Assembly: GCA_009692115.1 (NCBI GenBank) | Contig: SHZU01000010.1 | Coordinates: 62,001 to 126,000, forward strand | DNA length: 64,000 nucleotides | Direction of reading: 5' to 3' | Source: Gemmatimonadota bacterium | GTDB taxonomy: Bacteria; Gemmatimonadota; Gemmatimonadetes; Gemmatimonadales; GWC2-71-9 | In this document: positions 54,236-64,000 of the stretch, one piece after another | Numbering within the stretch: the first letter of the stretch is position 1 | Layout: each line of letters opens with the position of its first letter | The notes under the pieces: generated by a model | What the model saw: the letters and a program-made list of their open reading frames with translations, nothing else | What the model was told of the DNA's origin: nothing | The model's database searches: none | Program-made: the position numbers and the translations under genes

Positions 54236-55441
54236 TCAGTTGTCCTCCTTGGCGCGCTCGAAGATCACCTGGCCGTCGCCGATGACGAGTTCGACTCGAG
54301 ACCGCGGCTCGTACCAGGGGCCGTTGAACATCACCAGATCAGCGTCTTTCCCCACCTCGAGGCTCCCGACCCGATCGCCGACCCGGGCAATTTCGGCGGC
54401 GTTCCGGGTCACCATCTTCAGGGCCTCGTCTTCAGGAATCCCGTACCGCATCGCCAGCGCGGCGCAGAGCCGGAGCCATTTTTGGTTGATGACCGGCGCG
54501 TCGGTGTGCATCGCGATCTTGACGCCGGCCTTCCAAAGCACGTAGGGACCGGCCATGGCGTCCTCGCCGACCCCGATGCGAGGGCCTAACGGGAGGACGA
54601 CAGCTGAAATCCCCCGTTTGGCCAACTCCGGAGCCACCTTGTACGCTTCGGTCGAATGGTGCAGGGTGAGGTCGAATCCGAACTCGTCCTTTAACCGCAC
54701 CAAAGTCATCACGTCGGTGGCCGGGTGGACATGAGCGCGGACGTAGGTTTTCTTGGCCAGCACGTCCGCCATCGACTCGTAGCCGAGGTCCCGTGCCGGG
54801 GGATTGCCCTTCCGGCCATCGTCCTCCCATTTCTTGCCGGCCGCGACGTACTCCTGGGTCTTAATGAGATATTGGCGGAGATTGGCCGCCACGCCCATCG
54901 TGGTGGTGGGGTAGCGGTCGCGCGACTTGGCCCCCATCGCGAACTTCATTCCGCCTTTTTCGAGCAGCATCCGGCCGGCCAACTCAGGGCCGAACGTCTT
55001 GATCACCACCGCCATGCCGCTCACGTTTTCGCCGCTGCCCGGTCCGGTCACGATCGTGGTAACGCCGCCCGACACCGCATCTTTCCAATCCGGATCGCCA
55101 AGGTCGAGGGCATCGAGAAACCGGTGCTGGGGACCGATCAACATCGGCGAGTCATTGAGATCGGTGACCTTGGCCCCGATATGGGAGTGGTTGTCGATCA
55201 TCCCGGGCGTCACGACCTTGCCGGTGCCGTCGATGATCCTGGCGCCGGCGGGCGCCGGAACACTGGGTCCAAGGGCAACGATCTTCCCACCGCGGAGCAC
55301 GATGCTCCCGACGAACGGGGCCCCGTTGGCGGTGTGAATGGTCGCGCCCCGAATCACCGTGGCGGGCTCGGTCTGGGCGGTCAGGGAAGGCGGCGGCGGC
55401 GGCGCCGCGAAGGCGAGCAGCCAATACCAGGTGAGTCTCAT
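54236..55441 (-). CDS. Secreted amidohydrolase-family protein
   Basis: 401 residues. Signal peptide with a Pro-rich tail (FAAPPPPPSLTAQ). The metal motif is intact: GMIDNHSHIGAKV (His85 and His87). Other features are EPATVIRGATIHTANGAPFVG at the start, VLWKAGVKIAMHTDAPVI with a further His-x-D, and GSLEVGKDADLVMFNGPW at the end. It probably hydrolyses amide or cyclic amide compounds in the periplasm. The gene is followed at once by a related gene with a degraded metal site. Its ATG overlaps a stop of a PP2C remnant. Confidence 0.85.
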   Translation of the reverse strand: MRLTWYWLLAFAAPPPPPSLTAQTEPATVIRGATIHTANGAPFVGSIVLRGGKIVALGPSVPAPAGARIIDGTGKVVTPGMIDNHSHIGAKVTDLNDSPMLIGPQHRFLDALDLGDPDWKDAVSGGVTTIVTGPGSGENVSGMAVVIKTFGPELAGRMLLEKGGMKFAMGAKSRDRYPTTTMGVAANLRQYLIKTQEYVAAGKKWEDDGRKGNPPARDLGYESMADVLAKKTYVRAHVHPATDVMTLVRLKDEFGFDLTLHHSTEAYKVAPELAKRGISAVVLPLGPRIGVGEDAMAGPYVLWKAGVKIAMHTDAPVINQKWLRLCAALAMRYGIPEDEALKMVTRNAAEIARVGDRVGSLEVGKDADLVMFNGPWYEPRSRVELVIGDGQVIFERAKEDN

Positions 55442-55560
55442 TGGGAGTCCGAAAAGGGTTGCTTGGAACCGGACACGATGGCGCGGAGCACCACGACGGT
55501 CACGTTGTCACTTCCCCCGCCAGCCGACCTTCGGCGTCGGATCAACAGAGCCTGAGGAGG
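55438..55560 (-). pseudogene. PP2C protein phosphatase remnant, C-terminal end
   Basis: A 40-codon open stretch ends with the TGA at 55438-55440. It encodes SAGGGSDNVTVVVLRAIVSG, the last conserved beta-strand region of PP2C phosphatases with the metal-binding Asp (GGSDNVTV). Upstream the frame is closed by a stop at 55561, and the usual earlier domain (DxDGxG and ADGMGG region) is absent. The stop overlaps the ATG of the next amidohydrolase gene (ATGA). The gene is therefore truncated at its 5' end. Confidence 0.65.
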
Positions 55561-55740
55561 TCACCCGTTCAAACTAGGCCCGGTTTCGCCCTCGCGCTAC
55601 CCGATCCGGCCGGCACGACCGTCGCCAGTCGTCCGGCCAGGCCGCAACTTCGGGTCGAGCACACTATCCGTACCTTCCCGACGACCGAGACCCATGGCCA
55701 AGAACTAAAGAGAAAGCCCGCCCCCTGCCCGCCGAGACCC

Positions 55741-56076
55741 CGCCCGATCACCCGCGACCAGACCATCGGCGAATACATGATGGATTTGGGGGCCTGGACC
55801 GAAGCGCAGGTATCGACAGCGTCGGCCGCCAAATCACTGGCGAGCGCCATCGGCGGGTCGGCGTTGACCCCATCGGTCGGCTTGATCGACCTCGAGCCGG
55901 GCGACACGCTGCTCCTCTGCAGCGACGGGCTCACCAAGCACGTCGACGATGCTGCCATTGCCGCGGTGCTCGGCAAGCCGATCGGCGCGGAAGCCCAAGC
56001 CCGCGAGTTGGTGGCCCTGGCCTTGGCCGGCGGCGGCACCGACACCGTCACCGCCATCGCGTGGCCCGGGTCGGCT
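55741..56076 (+). pseudogene. PP2C protein phosphatase remnant, C-terminal half
   Basis: About 110 residues from RPITRDQTIGEYMMDLG to ALAGGGTDTVTAIAW, including LIDLEPGDTLLLCSDGLTKHVDD (a conserved PP2C motif with the Asp of SDG). The N-terminal metal-binding part of the domain is missing; the upstream frame shows no typical PP2C sequence. The frame reads on past 56076 into the amidase gene on the opposite strand, so the natural 3' end is unclear. It points away from the minus-strand remnant at 55438-55560, so both 5' halves seem to have been lost from the space between them. Confidence 0.7.
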
Positions 56077-57568
56077 AGATCAGCGGCGCTTTCCACCCAC
56101 CCAGGGCGGTCTCGATCACCTTCGCGGCCGCCAGCGCCACGTCCTCCCGCCACGGCTTGGCCACGCATTGGACCCCGATCGGCAATCCCTCGGGCGAGGT
56201 GCCCCCGCGGACCACCGCCACCGGCCACCCAGTGATGTTGTGGGGTTCGTTGTAACTGTCCCCGTACCCCGCGGCATTCGAGCCACCGTGCTTGACCGCC
56301 GGGAACGCCATGGCCGGACAGACGATCAGATCGACCGACTCCATCATCCGGCGCAACTGTCCCCGGACCTCGTCGAGTTGCTCCACCAGCAGCGTCAGCT
56401 GTTCGGCGCTCACCGGCTTGGCGCCGGCAAACCATCCGCCGACGGTCCCACCGTTAGGCGTGCCGGCCCCTTCCAGCAGCCGCTTGAGCCAAGCGCCCCC
56501 ATCGGCCCCGGCCATCTCATGCCAGAGTTCGGTGGCCCGGTTGAGTCCGGCTGGAAGCCGCTCCTCGACCCGGGCGCCGGCTTGCTGGAGGGCCAGGGCC
56601 GCGGATCGAACGACCTCGACCGTTTCAGAGGTCGGCTTCTGGACGCCGTTGTCGGTAAAGAAGACCACCCGAAGACCGGGAATCGCCACCCGCCGCGAGT
56701 CGAGCAACGGCACCGGCATCCCGTACGGATCTTCGTCGTCGATCCCGGACATGATCGGAATCAATCGGGCCAGGTCGTCGACCGTCCTCGCAATCGGGCC
56801 GAGCTGGGTCCACGACTCCATCAGGCCGCGGTACGATACGGCATGACCGGTCTTCGGAATCCGGCCGTGGGTTGCCTTGAGACCCGCCACGCCGCAGTAG
56901 TGGGCCGGCATCCGGATACTGTTCCCGGTATCGCTGCCGACATCGAACGGCGAACCGCCCGTTGCCACCAGGGCCACCGGTCCGCCGCTGCTTCCGCCCG
57001 GGGTTCGGGTCAGATCGTAGGGGTTGTTGGTCCGCCCATACACCGCGTTGTCGGTCTCGTCGGACCAGGTGAACTCTGGGGTGTTGGTCTTGCCCAGCAA
57101 GATCCCGCCGGCCGCCCGAAGCCGGGCCACCACCGTGGCGTCCTTGGTCGGGACCCGCTTGGCCCAGCCGATCGTTCCAGCCGTCGACACCACCCCGGCC
57201 GTATCGAGCGAATCCTTGATCGAGAACGGGACGCCATGCAGGGGCCCGAGCAGCTTTCCCCGGGCCAGTGACGCGTCCGCCGCTTTGGCCGCAGTCCGGG
57301 CCCGGTCGTCGGTCAGGTACACCATGGCGTTGATCTTCGGGTTGACCTGGTCGATCCGCTTCAAGCAAGCCTCGACGACCTCGAGGGACGAGACCCGTTT
57401 CTGCCGGATCGCCACCGCCAGTGTCCCCACCGAGGCGTAGTGGAGCGTGGCCTCCGTCAGGGCCGCCGCCAGAGTACCCTCGGCGTCGAGCTCCGGCCAC
57501 GGGAGTGCGGCACCGGCTGCGAGCGTGGCCACGAAGGCCCGTCGGGGAACATTCCGAGTCTCGTCCAT
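56075..57568 (-). CDS. Amidase signature enzyme with Tat-type signal
   Basis: 497 residues. The N-terminus NVPRRAFVATLAAGAALPWP is a twin-arginine signal, so export as a folded protein is likely. The amidase signature is complete: Lys in VPFSIKDSLDT, GGSSGGPVALVATGGSPFD with the first Ser, and SDTGNSIRMPAHYCG with the second, the Ser-cisSer-Lys triad. The usual substrates are aliphatic or aryl amides or peptides. The gene is followed 11 bases later by the SxxK hydrolase/D-aminoacylase fusion gene's stop, both minus-strand. It has a CCT-AAC codon pair as part of a GCCTAAC-type motif (56453). Confidence 0.88.
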   Translation of the reverse strand: MDETRNVPRRAFVATLAAGAALPWPELDAEGTLAAALTEATLHYASVGTLAVAIRQKRVSSLEVVEACLKRIDQVNPKINAMVYLTDDRARTAAKAADASLARGKLLGPLHGVPFSIKDSLDTAGVVSTAGTIGWAKRVPTKDATVVARLRAAGGILLGKTNTPEFTWSDETDNAVYGRTNNPYDLTRTPGGSSGGPVALVATGGSPFDVGSDTGNSIRMPAHYCGVAGLKATHGRIPKTGHAVSYRGLMESWTQLGPIARTVDDLARLIPIMSGIDDEDPYGMPVPLLDSRRVAIPGLRVVFFTDNGVQKPTSETVEVVRSAALALQQAGARVEERLPAGLNRATELWHEMAGADGGAWLKRLLEGAGTPNGGTVGGWFAGAKPVSAEQLTLLVEQLDEVRGQLRRMMESVDLIVCPAMAFPAVKHGGSNAAGYGDSYNEPHNITGWPVAVVRGGTSPEGLPIGVQCVAKPWREDVALAAAKVIETALGGWKAPLI

Positions 57569-57579
57569 GATCGGGAACC

Positions 57580-60500
57580 TCAGTTGGGCAGAATCGTGGC
57601 CAAGCGGTCGAGCCGCCCTTCGATCGGGTCGAGGCCTTCGACTGAGAGCCGGACCGTCGAAGGGCCCCCGTTCACGAATGGATCGGCCCGCTCGACGATC
57701 AGGGTAAATGACCGCGCCGCACCGGCCGAGTTGATGCGAGCCCGACCGGTGATCGAGGCCCAGCCCGATTTGCTTTGAAGGGTGCCGAGGGCCACCGACC
57801 GAATGGTGGTCTTGGTCGCGCCATCGACGAGGGTGATCGTGCCCGTCGCGTGCCGGCTCTGGCGCGCCTGCTGCACGGCGATCGTGACCTGGATCCGCGA
57901 TCCGCCGGCCAACGGCGTCGCGGCGCCACCAACGGCAACCCGCCGGGCCACGGCGAGATCCATCGGCCGGCTCGGCATGTTGCCGGTTCGGCGGAGCACG
58001 ACACCGCCTTGGTCGCCGGTGGCCTTCCCGTCCCGAAGGGCCACCCGGCCGTTCACCAGCACGTGGCGAATCCCCTCCGACCAGGCATCGGGCTTCTCGA
58101 ACGTGGCGTGATCGATGACCGTGGCCGTATCAAAGACCGTGATATCGGCGGCCATGCCCGGCGCGAGCAGCCCGCGGTCCACCAACCCAATCATGGCCGC
58201 CGGGAGCCCGGTCATTTTTCGAATCGCGTCTTCCCAAGTCAGGGCGTGGGTTTCCCGGACGTACCGGCCCAGCACCCGGGGAAAGGTCCCATAGTAGCGC
58301 GGGTGACCCCGGCTGCCGGTTGCCGCCCCGCAATCGCAGGCAATGGCCGCCGAATGGTACTGCATGATCTTGACGAGGTCCGCCTCGATGCCGAAGCCGA
58401 GGATGGCCCAGGGCGACTCGGTCTCCAGAACCTTGACGACGGCGTCACCGGGGGAGGTGGCGCCCGACTCATGGATGATGTCGGAGAGCCGGCGGGTGCC
58501 CAAGACCATGATCGATTCCGGCCCGTTGAACCGGGCCTTGATGGCCTCGTCGGATTCCTTGACGATCCGGGCCCGAAGCGCCGGGTCCTTAAACCGGGTC
58601 CGCATGGCCTCGGTGCCGCCGTCCTGGGCCCAACCCGGAACGATCAAAGCCGAGAGCGCGGTCTGGCCGGCCAAGTAGGGATAGACGTCCGCCGCCACCC
58701 ACCGCCCCGCGGACGACGACCGGGTCATCATCTCGATCACGGCGGCCGCGGTGCCCTGTTCGTGACCCTGGATCTTCATGTGGGTAAACTGGCCGACCAA
58801 GCCGGCCCGCTCGCCGATCAGCCGGGTTTCCTCGACCCCGGCCCGAGAGCTGTATCCGCTTTCAGGGGTGGACCGGTCATGGTTTGGAAAGAAGGTCCGC
58901 CACCGGCCGGCCGGCTTGAGGATCTCGACCACTTCGTCGGTCGTGGCGAAGTAGGCCGGCTTGTAGTCGAGCCCCGAGGCGACTCCGAACGCCCCCGCCC
59001 CCAAACCCGCGAGGATCAGCGATTGCATCTTTTCCACTTCAGTAGAGGACGGACGTCGGTTCGTAGGTCCCATCACACTCTGCCACACTGAGTTGAACCC
59101 AATGCTGGCCGCGACGTTCAGGGCGAGTCCTCCCTGCCCGATCGGCCGAAGCTGGGCGGCCAAATCGGTCGGACCGCCGCCATCGGCGTTGAGCAATTCG
59201 GTCGTGACCCCCTGGGTCAGCATGTTGACAGCCGTCGGCAGGGCGGCCGGACTCGCATGGCTGTGAACGTTGATGAATCCCGGTGCCACCATCAGACCCC
59301 AAACGTCGAGGTCGGTTGTCGCTTGCACCCCCGCGAGGTTCCCGATCCGGGCGATCCGGCCGCCGCTGATCGCGATATCGGCCCTGAACCGCGGGGCCCC
59401 GGAGCCGTCGACGATCGTGCCGCCGCGGAGGATGGTTTCGTACCGGGGCGACGGAAGCGCCTGAAGCACCTGCTCGATGAACCCGTCGAGGTCCCACTCG
59501 CGGCCGGGGGTATACCCGAGCCGAACGACCACGAGCCCCCGGGACGGGATGACCGCCACGTTCTGCTGATCGTAGCCCATGAAAAAGAATGCGTCAGTCG
59601 GGAGGCGTTGGTGGGGCCGCTTCCCGTTGGCCCCCCCGGCATTGATCCAGACCTGGGCTCCGTACCCGCCGGTCGAATCCGCCTTGGCCGGGGAGGTTGA
59701 ATACTTCACCCACCCTTCGGGCAGAATCCGGACCCCGTTCCAGACCCCATCATTCAAGTACAGCTGTCCGAACCGGGCCCAATCGCGGGCGCTCGCGAAC
59801 ATGAACGACGACCCCACAAACGTCCCCGAAGGGTCCGGCTCCAGCACGGCCGTGTGCATGCCAAGCGGCTCGAACAGGGTCCGGCGGGGGAACTCCCGGT
59901 AGGCGCTGTCGTTGCCGATCGTGTGCCGAATGATTCGCGAGATGATGTTGGTGGTGCCGCTCGAATACGACCAGCGGGCGCCGATCGGGTCGGCCAGCGG
60001 GAGGCCCGCGGCAAACCCGCCGGCGTCGTGGGTCAAAAAGAGGTCCCGGGCCACATCGCTGGTTCCCAGGCTGTAGCTCTCGTCGAACGCCAGACCCGAA
60101 CTCATTCGCATCAGGTCCTCGAGCCGAATGGCCGCCCGGGGGTCGCCAGCCTGCTGCCACTCCGGCACGGCCGCCGAACGATCCAGGGCCACCTTGCCCT
60201 GCCGGACGAGAATCCCGATCAGGGCATTGGTGACGCTCTTGGTCATCGACCAGCCGAGTTGCGGCGTCGCGGCGTCGTACCCCTTCGCGTAGCGCTCGGC
60301 CACGATCCGCCCGTTCCAGGCCACCACGATCCCCCGGGTCTGTTTCGGCTGGGCCGCTGTCGGCTCAGCGAAAGCCCCGTCGAGGGCCGCCCGGAGCTTG
60401 GCGGCGTCGACCCCCTCGGGCAGTTGGGTGGTATCGATTCGTTCACCGGCGGGCCAGAGCGCCTGGGAACGAACCAGGCTGGCACGCCGGGCCCCGGCGG

Positions 60501-60807
60501 AGCCGGCCCACGGCATCGAATCCGATCGCAGGGAGCAGCCAAGGCCGGGTTGCCAAACGGCCCGGCGGGACTCCGCCCCGGGAATCCAGGCCACCACCGA
60601 TCGGGTGGCACTGTCGACCCGGTACGGGATCGGGGCGGCCAACTTGAGCTCCTGGCTCAACGCCTCGGCCGCGGACCGGTGGGAGACGAAGACCGTGGAG
60701 CAGAGCATCTTCGCGGCATATCCGGTCACCAGACCGGCCGGCGCCTGAGCCACAGCAGGAGCCGCCGCCACGGCGGTCAGGAGCAGGGCGAGACCGGGTC
60801 GGTTCAT
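57580..60807 (-). CDS. Fusion: SxxK serine hydrolase plus D-aminoacylase-type amidohydrolase
   Basis: 1075 residues from ATG 60807, with GGAAG seven bases upstream and a Sec signal ending in AVAQ. Residues about 100-450 are a class C beta-lactamase-like domain: Ser187-Met-Thr-Lys190 nucleophile motif and Tyr281-Ser-Ser as a Y-x-N variant. Residues about 455-960 are an amidohydrolase: YETILRGGTIVDGSG, GFINVHSHASP (His515, His517), IQGHEQGT, VYPYLAGQT and DITVFDTATVID. This part resembles N-acyl-D-amino acid deacylases. About 115 residues follow as a beta-rich tail. The upstream nitroreductase-type gene ends four bases before its start. Confidence 0.87.
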   Translation of the reverse strand: MNRPGLALLLTAVAAAPAVAQAPAGLVTGYAAKMLCSTVFVSHRSAAEALSQELKLAAPIPYRVDSATRSVVAWIPGAESRRAVWQPGLGCSLRSDSMPWAGSAGARRASLVRSQALWPAGERIDTTQLPEGVDAAKLRAALDGAFAEPTAAQPKQTRGIVVAWNGRIVAERYAKGYDAATPQLGWSMTKSVTNALIGILVRQGKVALDRSAAVPEWQQAGDPRAAIRLEDLMRMSSGLAFDESYSLGTSDVARDLFLTHDAGGFAAGLPLADPIGARWSYSSGTTNIISRIIRHTIGNDSAYREFPRRTLFEPLGMHTAVLEPDPSGTFVGSSFMFASARDWARFGQLYLNDGVWNGVRILPEGWVKYSTSPAKADSTGGYGAQVWINAGGANGKRPHQRLPTDAFFFMGYDQQNVAVIPSRGLVVVRLGYTPGREWDLDGFIEQVLQALPSPRYETILRGGTIVDGSGAPRFRADIAISGGRIARIGNLAGVQATTDLDVWGLMVAPGFINVHSHASPAALPTAVNMLTQGVTTELLNADGGGPTDLAAQLRPIGQGGLALNVAASIGFNSVWQSVMGPTNRRPSSTEVEKMQSLILAGLGAGAFGVASGLDYKPAYFATTDEVVEILKPAGRWRTFFPNHDRSTPESGYSSRAGVEETRLIGERAGLVGQFTHMKIQGHEQGTAAAVIEMMTRSSSAGRWVAADVYPYLAGQTALSALIVPGWAQDGGTEAMRTRFKDPALRARIVKESDEAIKARFNGPESIMVLGTRRLSDIIHESGATSPGDAVVKVLETESPWAILGFGIEADLVKIMQYHSAAIACDCGAATGSRGHPRYYGTFPRVLGRYVRETHALTWEDAIRKMTGLPAAMIGLVDRGLLAPGMAADITVFDTATVIDHATFEKPDAWSEGIRHVLVNGRVALRDGKATGDQGGVVLRRTGNMPSRPMDLAVARRVAVGGAATPLAGGSRIQVTIAVQQARQSRHATGTITLVDGATKTTIRSVALGTLQSKSGWASITGRARINSAGAARSFTLIVERADPFVNGGPSTVRLSVEGLDPIEGRLDRLATILPN

Positions 60808-60811
60808 GACG

Positions 60812-61507
60812 TCACTTCCAGATCGCAATCGTGTCGAGGGGCTTCCGGGTCAAATCGGGGACCAAGGCACCGGGCGCGGGATATCCGACCGGCATGACCA
60901 GCATGGCCTTCTCGTTGGCCGGCCGGCCCAACAGCTCCGCCAAGAACCCCATCGGATTCGGGGTGTGGGTCAAGGTGACGAGGCCGATCTGGTGCACCGC
61001 GGCGATGAAGAATCCCGCGGCGATGCCGCAAGACTCCTGGGTGTAGTAGTAGGTTCGCTTCGACCCATCGGGCTTGACCCCGTAAGCCTGGCGGAACAAC
61101 ACCACCACCCAGGGCGCGTCGGTCAAATGAGGTTTGTGCTCATCGGTGCCGAGTGGCGCGAGCGCCTCGACCCACTCTTCGGGGGCCCGGCCGTGATAGA
61201 AATCGTGTTCCTCGAGCTCCGCAGCCTCCCGGATCTTTCGCTTCAGCTCGGGATCGGACACCGCGACAAAGGTCCACGGCTGTTGGTGGGCGCCACTCGG
61301 CGCCGTGCCGGCCACCCGGAGCGCGCATTCGATCAAATCCTTCGGCACCGGTTCAGGGGAGAAATGGCGGGTGGTGCGCCGCCGATTCATCTCCTCGTAG
61401 AACGCCCGGCCCTGTTGCCGGGACGCCTCAAGCGACTGGCGGGTGAACACCAGTGGCACGAACGGATGGGCCTTCCCGGCGAACTGCGATGCGGTGGTAT
61501 CACTCAT
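60812..61507 (-). CDS. Iodotyrosine deiodinase-like flavoprotein (nitroreductase fold)
   Basis: 231 residues, no signal peptide. RRRTTRHFSPEPVPKDLIE (about 42-60) binds FMN. AGTAPSGAHQQPWTFVAVSDP (residues 66-86) and the C-terminal GRPANEKAMLVMPVGYP and LTRKPLDTI closely match human iodotyrosine deiodinase as I recall it. The three substrate-contact residues of that family align: Glu100, Tyr104 four residues later, and Lys125 21 residues after the Tyr, as in the human E157-Y161-K182 triad. Bacterial members reductively dehalogenate halotyrosines. It sits between the fusion hydrolase and methylmalonate-semialdehyde dehydrogenase genes. Activity is inference from conservation. Confidence 0.78.
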   Translation of the reverse strand: MSDTTASQFAGKAHPFVPLVFTRQSLEASRQQGRAFYEEMNRRRTTRHFSPEPVPKDLIECALRVAGTAPSGAHQQPWTFVAVSDPELKRKIREAAELEEHDFYHGRAPEEWVEALAPLGTDEHKPHLTDAPWVVVLFRQAYGVKPDGSKRTYYYTQESCGIAAGFFIAAVHQIGLVTLTHTPNPMGFLAELLGRPANEKAMLVMPVGYPAPGALVPDLTRKPLDTIAIWK

Positions 61508-61511
61508 GGTG

Positions 61512-62999
61512 TCAGCGAGTTTGGGGAAAGCCAAGGTTGACCGAGCTGGTGGCCGGGTCGGGCCACCGGCTGGTGACGACTTTGCCACGAGTGTAGAAAT
61601 GCACCCCATCGGGTCCGTAGATATGGGTGTCGCCGAACAGCGAATCTTTCCAACCGCCAAACGAGTAATAGGCCACCGGTACCGGGATCGGAACGTTGAT
61701 CCCGACCATGCCACAGGTCACCTCGGACTGAAACCGCCGGGCCGCCCCGCCGTCCCTGGTAAAAATCGCGGCGCCGTTCCCATACTGATTCTGGTTGACG
61801 ATATCGAGCGCCTCCTCGTACGTCCCCGCCCGGACCACCGACAGCACCGGGCCGAAGATCTCGTCCCGATAGACCGCCATACTGGGTGTGACTCGGTCAA
61901 CCAGCGACACGCCGAGGAAGAAGCCCTGGCCCGCAAAGGTCTGGCCCCGGCCGTCGGTCACCACCGTGGCCCCCTCCTGCTTAGCCAGATCGAGGTAGGA
62001 GGCCACCTTGTCGCGATGCTCCTTGGTAATCAGGGGACCCATCTCCGCGGCCGGGTCGGTACCCGGCCCGATCTTGATCCGGCCGAGCCGGGCCGCAATC
62101 GCCTCGACCAAGGCATCGGCGATCGACCCCACGGCCACCACCACCGAAATGGCCATACATCGCTCACCGGCCGATCCGTACGCCGCACTGACCGCCGCGT
62201 CGGCCGCCGCGCCAAGATCGGCGTCCGGTAGCACCACCATGTGGTTCTTCGCTCCGCCTAACGCCTGGACCCGCTTTCCGGCGGCGGTGCCCCGCTGGTA
62301 GATGGCCCGGGCCACCGGGGTCGACCCGACGAAACTGATGGCCTGGACGGTCCGATGATCGAGCAACCGGTCCACCGCCACCTTATCTCCGTGGACCACG
62401 TTGAGCACCCCGTCGGGGAGGCCGGCCTCGGTCAGCCACTTGGCGAGCACCAACGCGGCGGAAGGATCCTTCTCCGACGGTTTCAGAATGACCGTATTAC
62501 CGCAGGCAATGGCGTTCGAAATCATCCAGAGCGGAACCATGGCCGGGAAGTTGAACGGCGTAATCGCGGCGACGACCCCAAGCGGCTGGCGGATCGAATA
62601 GACGTCGACCCCGGTCGACACGCCCTCGCTGTAGCCGCCCTTGAGCAACTCGGGAATGCCCGCCGCAAACTCGACGTTCTCGATGCCCCGGGCCACCTCG
62701 CCGGCCGCGTCGGACGGGACCTTCCCGTGCTCTTGGCTGATGACATTGGCCAACTCGGCCCGTCGCTCCACCAGAATGTGCCGGAACCGAAAGAACACGT
62801 CGGCCCGTTTGCCCAACGGGGCGGCGCTCCACGACACGGCCGCCTTGGCCGCGGCCGCGACGGCCTCATCGACTTCCTCGGCCGAGGCAAAGTCGACCGC
62901 GGCCTGCTGCTCGCCGAGGGCCGGATTGAAGACCGGACCGCTCCGGCCGGAACGACCCTTGACCTCGTGGCCGCCGATGTAATGAGAAATCGTTCGCAC
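61512..62999 (-). CDS. mmsA: Methylmalonate-semialdehyde dehydrogenase (CoA-acylating)
   Basis: 495 residues from GTG 62999. Aldehyde dehydrogenase fold: AITPFNFPAMVPLWM, GNTVILKPSEKDPS, FVGSTPVARAIY (NAD binding), and catalytic Cys in YGSAGERCMAISV. The GERCMA sequence, FNFPAMVPLWM and length around 500 are characteristic of MmsA, which converts methylmalonate semialdehyde and CoA to propionyl-CoA in valine and inositol degradation. It starts seven bases after the M20 peptidase stop and ends four bases before the deiodinase-like gene, all on one strand. A TTA-GGC codon pair (62256) lies in the ALGGAKNH region. Confidence 0.92.
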   Translation of the reverse strand: MRTISHYIGGHEVKGRSGRSGPVFNPALGEQQAAVDFASAEEVDEAVAAAAKAAVSWSAAPLGKRADVFFRFRHILVERRAELANVISQEHGKVPSDAAGEVARGIENVEFAAGIPELLKGGYSEGVSTGVDVYSIRQPLGVVAAITPFNFPAMVPLWMISNAIACGNTVILKPSEKDPSAALVLAKWLTEAGLPDGVLNVVHGDKVAVDRLLDHRTVQAISFVGSTPVARAIYQRGTAAGKRVQALGGAKNHMVVLPDADLGAAADAAVSAAYGSAGERCMAISVVVAVGSIADALVEAIAARLGRIKIGPGTDPAAEMGPLITKEHRDKVASYLDLAKQEGATVVTDGRGQTFAGQGFFLGVSLVDRVTPSMAVYRDEIFGPVLSVVRAGTYEEALDIVNQNQYGNGAAIFTRDGGAARRFQSEVTCGMVGINVPIPVPVAYYSFGGWKDSLFGDTHIYGPDGVHFYTRGKVVTSRWPDPATSSVNLGFPQTR

Positions 63000-63006
63000 A
63001 GAAAAC

Positions 63007-64000
63007 CTATTGGCAGTAGTGACGGGCGGTAGCCGCGAGAACGTCCGCGGTCTGATAAACACTTTCCAGATCGACCCATTCGACGGCCGCGTGGGCCCCG
63101 GCGCCGGTCGGGCCGAACACCACGGTCTCGACGCCGGCGGCGGCCAGCAAGGCCGAGTCCATCCACGGGGTGTCGCCCACCATCTTGGGCGTCGAGCCCA
63201 GCACGCCGAGAGCGCCGACGGCCAACGACCGAACGATGCCGGCCTCGGGCGAGACTTCGAACGGCTCCCGCGCAAAAAAACATTCCACCCGAGACTGAAA
63301 GCCGGGATCCTCGGCCTCGAGTTCGGACCGGAGCGCCTGGATCTCGGCCATCGCGCTGGCTTCGGTTTCGCCGGGGATGGTCCGCCGCTCGATCTCGATC
63401 CGGCAATTCGCCGCGTAGGTGCTGAGCCCGGTGCCACCATGGAGGGTCGCGGCGTGAAGCGACGGCGGGCCGACCAATCGGTGGGCCAACCGGCGCCGGA
63501 GCTCTTGCTCCAACCGATCGAGGCGGCCCAAGAACCGCCCCATCCGCATATTCGCGTCAAGGCCTTGGTCGACCTTGCTCCCATGCGCCGCCCGGCCCTG
63601 GGTTTCGACCGCAATCCAGAGATACCCCTTGTGGGCCAGGCAGATCTCGAGCGCGGTCGGCTCGGTGACGATGGCACCGTCGACCTTGATCCGTTGAACC
63701 AGATCGGCGGTGCCGCAGCTGCCGTACTCCTCATCAGCCACCGCGGCCACGATCACGTCCCCCCGAAGCCGGGCGCCGCTTTCCTGGAGCAGCTTCACGG
63801 CGGTGATGCTGGCCGCCACACTGCCCTTCATGTCGAAGGAGCCCCGCCCATAGAGCTTACCATCCCGCACGGCACCCGAGAACGGCTCCGCCATCCCCTC
63901 GACCTCGACCGTATCATAGTGGCCGTTCAGCATCAAACTCTTCCCGCCCCCGGTACCCCGAAGCCGGCCGGTGACACTGATCCGGCCCGGTTCGGGCTCG
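63007..64000 (-). CDS. M20-family peptidase (ArgE/DapE type), truncated by the window edge
   Basis: About 330 residues are visible, and the true start lies beyond 64000. Metal-binding features: LNGHYDTV (His and Asp), GRGSFDMKG with the bridging Asp, VAVADEEYGS (paired Glu), and a late GPTGAGAHAAVEWVDL with the last His. These are the M20 peptidase core and a middle dimerisation domain (GRAAHGSKVDQGLDA). The family deacylates N-acyl amino acids (acetylornithine, succinyl-diaminopimelate) or cuts peptides. It is the upstream gene of the MmsA operon. Confidence 0.88.
   Translation of the reverse strand, partial: EPEPGRISVTGRLRGTGGGKSLMLNGHYDTVEVEGMAEPFSGAVRDGKLYGRGSFDMKGSVAASITAVKLLQESGARLRGDVIVAAVADEEYGSCGTADLVQRIKVDGAIVTEPTALEICLAHKGYLWIAVETQGRAAHGSKVDQGLDANMRMGRFLGRLDRLEQELRRRLAHRLVGPPSLHAATLHGGTGLSTYAANCRIEIERRTIPGETEASAMAEIQALRSELEAEDPGFQSRVECFFAREPFEVSPEAGIVRSLAVGALGVLGSTPKMVGDTPWMDSALLAAAGVETVVFGPTGAGAHAAVEWVDLESVYQTADVLAATARHYCQ

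Follow-up and report, generated by a model that had tools for sequence, protein, structure and literature searches.

Does the reading frame of 231 amino acids at positions 60812-61507 encode a bacterial iodotyrosine deiodinase (IYD), and do the genes around it tell us what such an enzyme would do in this organism? In the thyroid, the enzyme of this name removes iodine (or bromine or chlorine) from tyrosine. The window, i.e. the whole stretch of 64,000 nucleotides analysed here, had been interpreted earlier from its letters, and this sequence-only reading proposed an IYD homologue with a full substrate triad. Its placement of the ORF was exact; the minus strand was omitted. The gene and the codons of the residues considered below are located as follows:

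60812-61507, minus strand: IYD gene, 231 aa, FMN-dependent iodotyrosine deiodinase family (sequence, tree, fold)
61208-61210, minus strand: Glu100 codon (human Glu157), substrate triad (ORF coordinates and alignment)
61196-61198, minus strand: Tyr104 codon (human Tyr161), substrate triad (ORF coordinates and alignment)
61133-61135, minus strand: Lys125 codon (human Lys182), substrate triad (ORF coordinates and alignment)
60962-60964, minus strand: Thr182 codon (mouse Thr235, human Thr239), flavin-contact threonine (alignment)

Characterised IYDs were the best sequence relatives of the window protein, in agreement with the proposed homology. The PDB sequence search was led by the Haliscomenobacter hydrossis IYD (5ko7, E=2.7e-75), followed at about 1e-55 by the mouse (E=2.4e-56) and human (E=5e-55) enzymes, and the Thermotoga IYD (9e-22) ranked ahead of general nitroreductases. 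Query numbering equals the human number minus 57 and the mouse number minus 53, and the alignment is gap-free until about position 188. Therefore, E100, Y104 and K125 correspond to human E157, Y161 and K182, which we take to be the IYD substrate triad positions; the full E-Y-K triad described earlier is thus confirmed without gaps. The triad was found in 60/60 IYD-like relatives versus 0/18 other nitroreductases. In mouse IYD, FMN is contacted by R96, R97, S98, R100, P123, S124, T235 and R275 (PMC3930498). The equivalents in the window protein are R43, R44, T45, R47, P70, S71, T182 and R221, of which 7/8 are identical; the exception, S98 to Thr45, is conservative and Thr is also present in the Haliscomenobacter enzyme. 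Thr182 is kept in 58/60 relatives, but is not diagnostic on its own because the same column holds Thr in 8/18 nitroreductases.

The phylogenetic relationship of 83 sequences was analysed by maximum likelihood, with Thermotoga, vertebrate, Haliscomenobacter, Gemmatimonadota and Actinomycetota proteins on the IYD side. A 99/94 branch of the tree separated all IYDs from the 18 other nitroreductases. The window protein fell together with bacterial, Thermotoga and vertebrate IYDs, and not with 1nox, YdjA or 4dn2-type sequences; the grouping with ordinary nitroreductases that had been named as a possible refutation was not observed. The AlphaFold model of the protein (pLDDT 85.4, pTM 0.82; lid blocks 101-130 at pLDDT 74-81) is congruent with this placement. 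IYD structures were the top Foldseek matches of the model, and VIA-align ranked the iodotyrosine-bound 5ko8 (5ko8_B) best with Z 26.9, rmsd 1.4 and 217 aligned residues (residues 15-231), versus Z 18.8 for the best non-IYD structure. The window protein is thus predicted to possess the IYD fold, including its lid region.

An ordinary nitroreductase, a BluB or an FbiB-type protein could have been mistaken for an IYD, as the general Pfam Nitroreductase family covers the window protein and the BluB and FbiB models match it weakly. However, the BluB model (TIGR02476) reached 53.1 bits against a cut-off of 150, and the identity as 5,6-dimethylbenzimidazole synthase was rejected on this score; the FbiB C-terminal domain (TIGR03553) likewise stayed below its cut-off (42.2 versus 249.55 bits), and the protein was set clearly apart from nitroreductases by the tree and from all three alternatives by the fold ranking. 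Altogether, we regard such a mistaken assignment as practically negligible. None of the relatives passed the BluB cut-off, and consequently the tree contained no confirmed BluB sequence. Some outgroup branches are also long, so that the Thermotoga placement and the root are less certain than the position of the window protein.

Next to its individual relatives, the window protein shows the following likenesses and differences. It shares with the H. hydrossis IYD (PDB 5ko7, 5ko8, 5krd) 55% identity over 209 residues, the triad, identity at all eight FMN-contact positions and the best fold match, although Haliscomenobacter belongs to another phylum, the Bacteroidota, and about 45% of the residues differ. 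Human and mouse IYD (DEHAL1; 4ttb/4ttc, 3gb5/3gfd/3gh8) share 47% and 44% identity, respectively, as well as the E-Y-K triad, the FMN contacts and the C-terminal PDLxRK motif. In contrast to these enzymes, no N-terminal membrane anchor was seen in the window protein, Thr45 takes the place of mouse S98, and the flavin threonine lies in THTP instead of TTTP. The Thermotoga IYD (PDB 6pz0) has the triad and the flavin threonine, but is shorter, branches outside in the tree and, across 159 aligned residues, is 34% identical. Thermus NADH oxidase (1nox) and the only other nitroreductase of the genome (contig C13; 23% identity) share the nitroreductase fold and the arginine-rich FMN motif, but lack the triad and the flavin threonine and lie across the 99/94 branch. 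The window protein is thus a clear and ordinary member of the IYD family, which itself is already known.

A bacterial halotyrosine dehalogenase had been considered unusual. This view does not hold: two bacterial IYDs have solved structures (Haliscomenobacter, Thermotoga), and close relatives (E below 1e-30) were found in 160/346 Gemmatimonadota genomes and in 5/6 genomes of the genus. Further relatives are present in Actinomycetota, one Myxococcota MAG and one Acidobacteriota MAG, and a 2026 review describes the range of IYD as extending from mammals to bacteria (PMC13078365). With relatives this widespread and the family placed in bacteria by the review, a bacterial IYD is not surprising. One of the relatives, located in a MAG (L046:5530-6166), appears frameshifted in its second half.

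As to the genomic localization, the genes closest to IYD are:

63007-64000, minus strand: ArgE/DapE-type M20 deacylase, extending beyond the window end, part of a genus-conserved block
61512-62999, minus strand: MmsA, CoA-acylating methylmalonate-semialdehyde dehydrogenase (TIGR01722, 691.6 bits, over cut-off), upstream operon gene, likely GTG start, not a conserved partner
57580-60807, minus strand: serine hydrolase (beta-lactamase family)/D-aminoacylase-like amidohydrolase fusion, two domains in a single ORF of about 1075 aa, downstream operon gene, not a conserved partner
56075-57568, minus strand: amidase-signature amidase, not a conserved partner

These genes form a tight same-strand operon, in which the mmsA stop lies 4 bp before the IYD ATG and the next ATG follows 4 bp after the IYD stop. 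Upstream of IYD and mmsA are the M20 deacylase, an S9 peptidase, a SusD-like gene (named from gene order and sequence, having no Pfam match) and a SusC-type TonB receptor; the fusion, the amidase and two amidohydrolases lie downstream. One possible explanation could be that IYD joined a peptide/amide-catabolic operon and dehalogenates tyrosine from halogenated peptides that are imported and processed with SusC/SusD, the S9 peptidase, the M20 deacylase and the amidases. The shared strand, the 4-bp spacing on both sides and the uptake and peptidase genes upstream are in line with this idea, as are two congeners in which IYD follows a putative oligopeptide transporter gene (read from sequence) or an S9-like peptidase gene.

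The conservation of this context was analysed by comparison with other IYD loci, 47 of them flanked by up to 8 kb of sequence and a further 19 by only ~1.5 kb, using 19 proteins (IYD and neighbours) as tblastn queries against all loci. Neither mmsA, the M20 gene nor the fusion was found beside IYD in any of the 47 other flanked loci (0/47). ORF clustering revealed a shared IYD neighbour only among close relatives; as many of the clustered ORFs are spurious in high-GC DNA, codon-position GC was used to call the genes next to IYD anew, and these proved to be varied. A conserved operon partner was rejected, since none emerged from tblastn, ORF clustering or the re-called neighbours. In three congeners (L105-L107), the two amidohydrolases come within ~200 bp after the M20 gene, and IYD, mmsA, the fusion and the amidase are all missing from the interval. 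Congener L108 has a 1.4-kb gap at the corresponding place, and the contig of congener L104 ends there. Where congeners have an IYD of their own, it is located elsewhere, beside different genes. MmsA, moreover, has no evident role with halotyrosine. The step from an amide-degrading region to peptide salvage, as taken by the sequence-only reading, is therefore not borne out, given neighbours common to none of the other flanked loci and congeners that keep the block without IYD. Participation of IYD in such a peptide-catabolic operon seems unlikely, and we consider it quite improbable that a peptide-uptake/amide-hydrolysis operon of this lineage captured the gene as a dedicated step in halogenated-peptide use.

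The operon placement of IYD is lineage-specific and, for this reason, provides weak evidence on its function. Across the Gemmatimonadota, IYD is widespread and occurs in many different gene neighbourhoods, which makes gene context unfit for inferring its substrate. A comparison of window positions 54236-64000 and L069:3008-6212 with the congeners L105, L106 and L107 showed a shared block of SusCD, M20 and two amidohydrolases; the S9 peptidase, mmsA, IYD, the hydrolase fusion and the amidase are present here and missing from the congener block. In three Gemmatimonadota loci (L021, L028, L057), an aminotransferase-like gene lies directly upstream of IYD, which is not the case at the window locus.

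With a probability of roughly 82%, we consider the protein to be a soluble, free-standing enzyme that uses FMN to dehalogenate free halotyrosine reductively; its product would enter ordinary tyrosine use. By homology, a homodimer would bind FMN, and E100, Y104 and K125 would close as a lid on the amino-acid end of free L-halotyrosine. The substrate phenol may then stack on the flavin, and a hydrogen bond from Thr182 to flavin N5 would favour one-electron steps, so that, in the proposed mechanism, reduced FMN could remove iodide (or bromide, chloride) and leave L-tyrosine to be used or degraded. The gene would act alone, independent of the operon it occupies. Lid, N5 threonine and dimer are mechanistic details of the family; for the window protein, we infer halide removal, the dimer, lid motion, the in vivo substrate and the electron donor by analogy. 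Human DEHAL1 was shown to debrominate bromotyrosine (PMC4708624).

Three points count against the dehalogenase reading: neither an NAD(P)H reductase partner nor a halotyrosine source was found linked to the IYD gene, the hmgA-like match described below lies far under its curated cut-off, and proteins with the IYD fold can have unknown substrates, as illustrated by C. elegans SUP-18, an animal IYD orthologue without known substrate (PMC3930498). The latter, together with the many Gemmatimonadota that retain IYD without a linked halogen source, would also suit a flavoenzyme of this fold whose physiological substrate is a different small compound, phenolic or zwitterionic, and which turns over halotyrosine only in the laboratory. 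However, family members conserve both the triad that binds the zwitterion and the flavin threonine, as expected for amino-acid halophenol chemistry, and we judge a different substrate to be very improbable.

For the dehalogenase reading, a plausible fate of the tyrosine product leads via HPPD and a distant homogentisate-dioxygenase-like gene. HPPD was detected over cut-off on contig C3, directly adjoined by an hmgA-like ORF (C3:234597-236690, L111) that matches weakly (49 bits versus a curated cut-off of 510.75); the Pfam family HgmA_C (homogentisate dioxygenase) was not detected in the genome. Outside the window, ~13-17 kb upstream of IYD, a kynurenine-pathway cluster (L069:14488-18777, contig C10) comprises a VioC/KMO-like monooxygenase, kynureninase, an ACMSD-like amidohydrolase and 3-hydroxyanthranilate dioxygenase. 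Near this cluster, the other strand carries an SDR, an aminomuconate-semialdehyde-dehydrogenase-like gene and a Rid protein.
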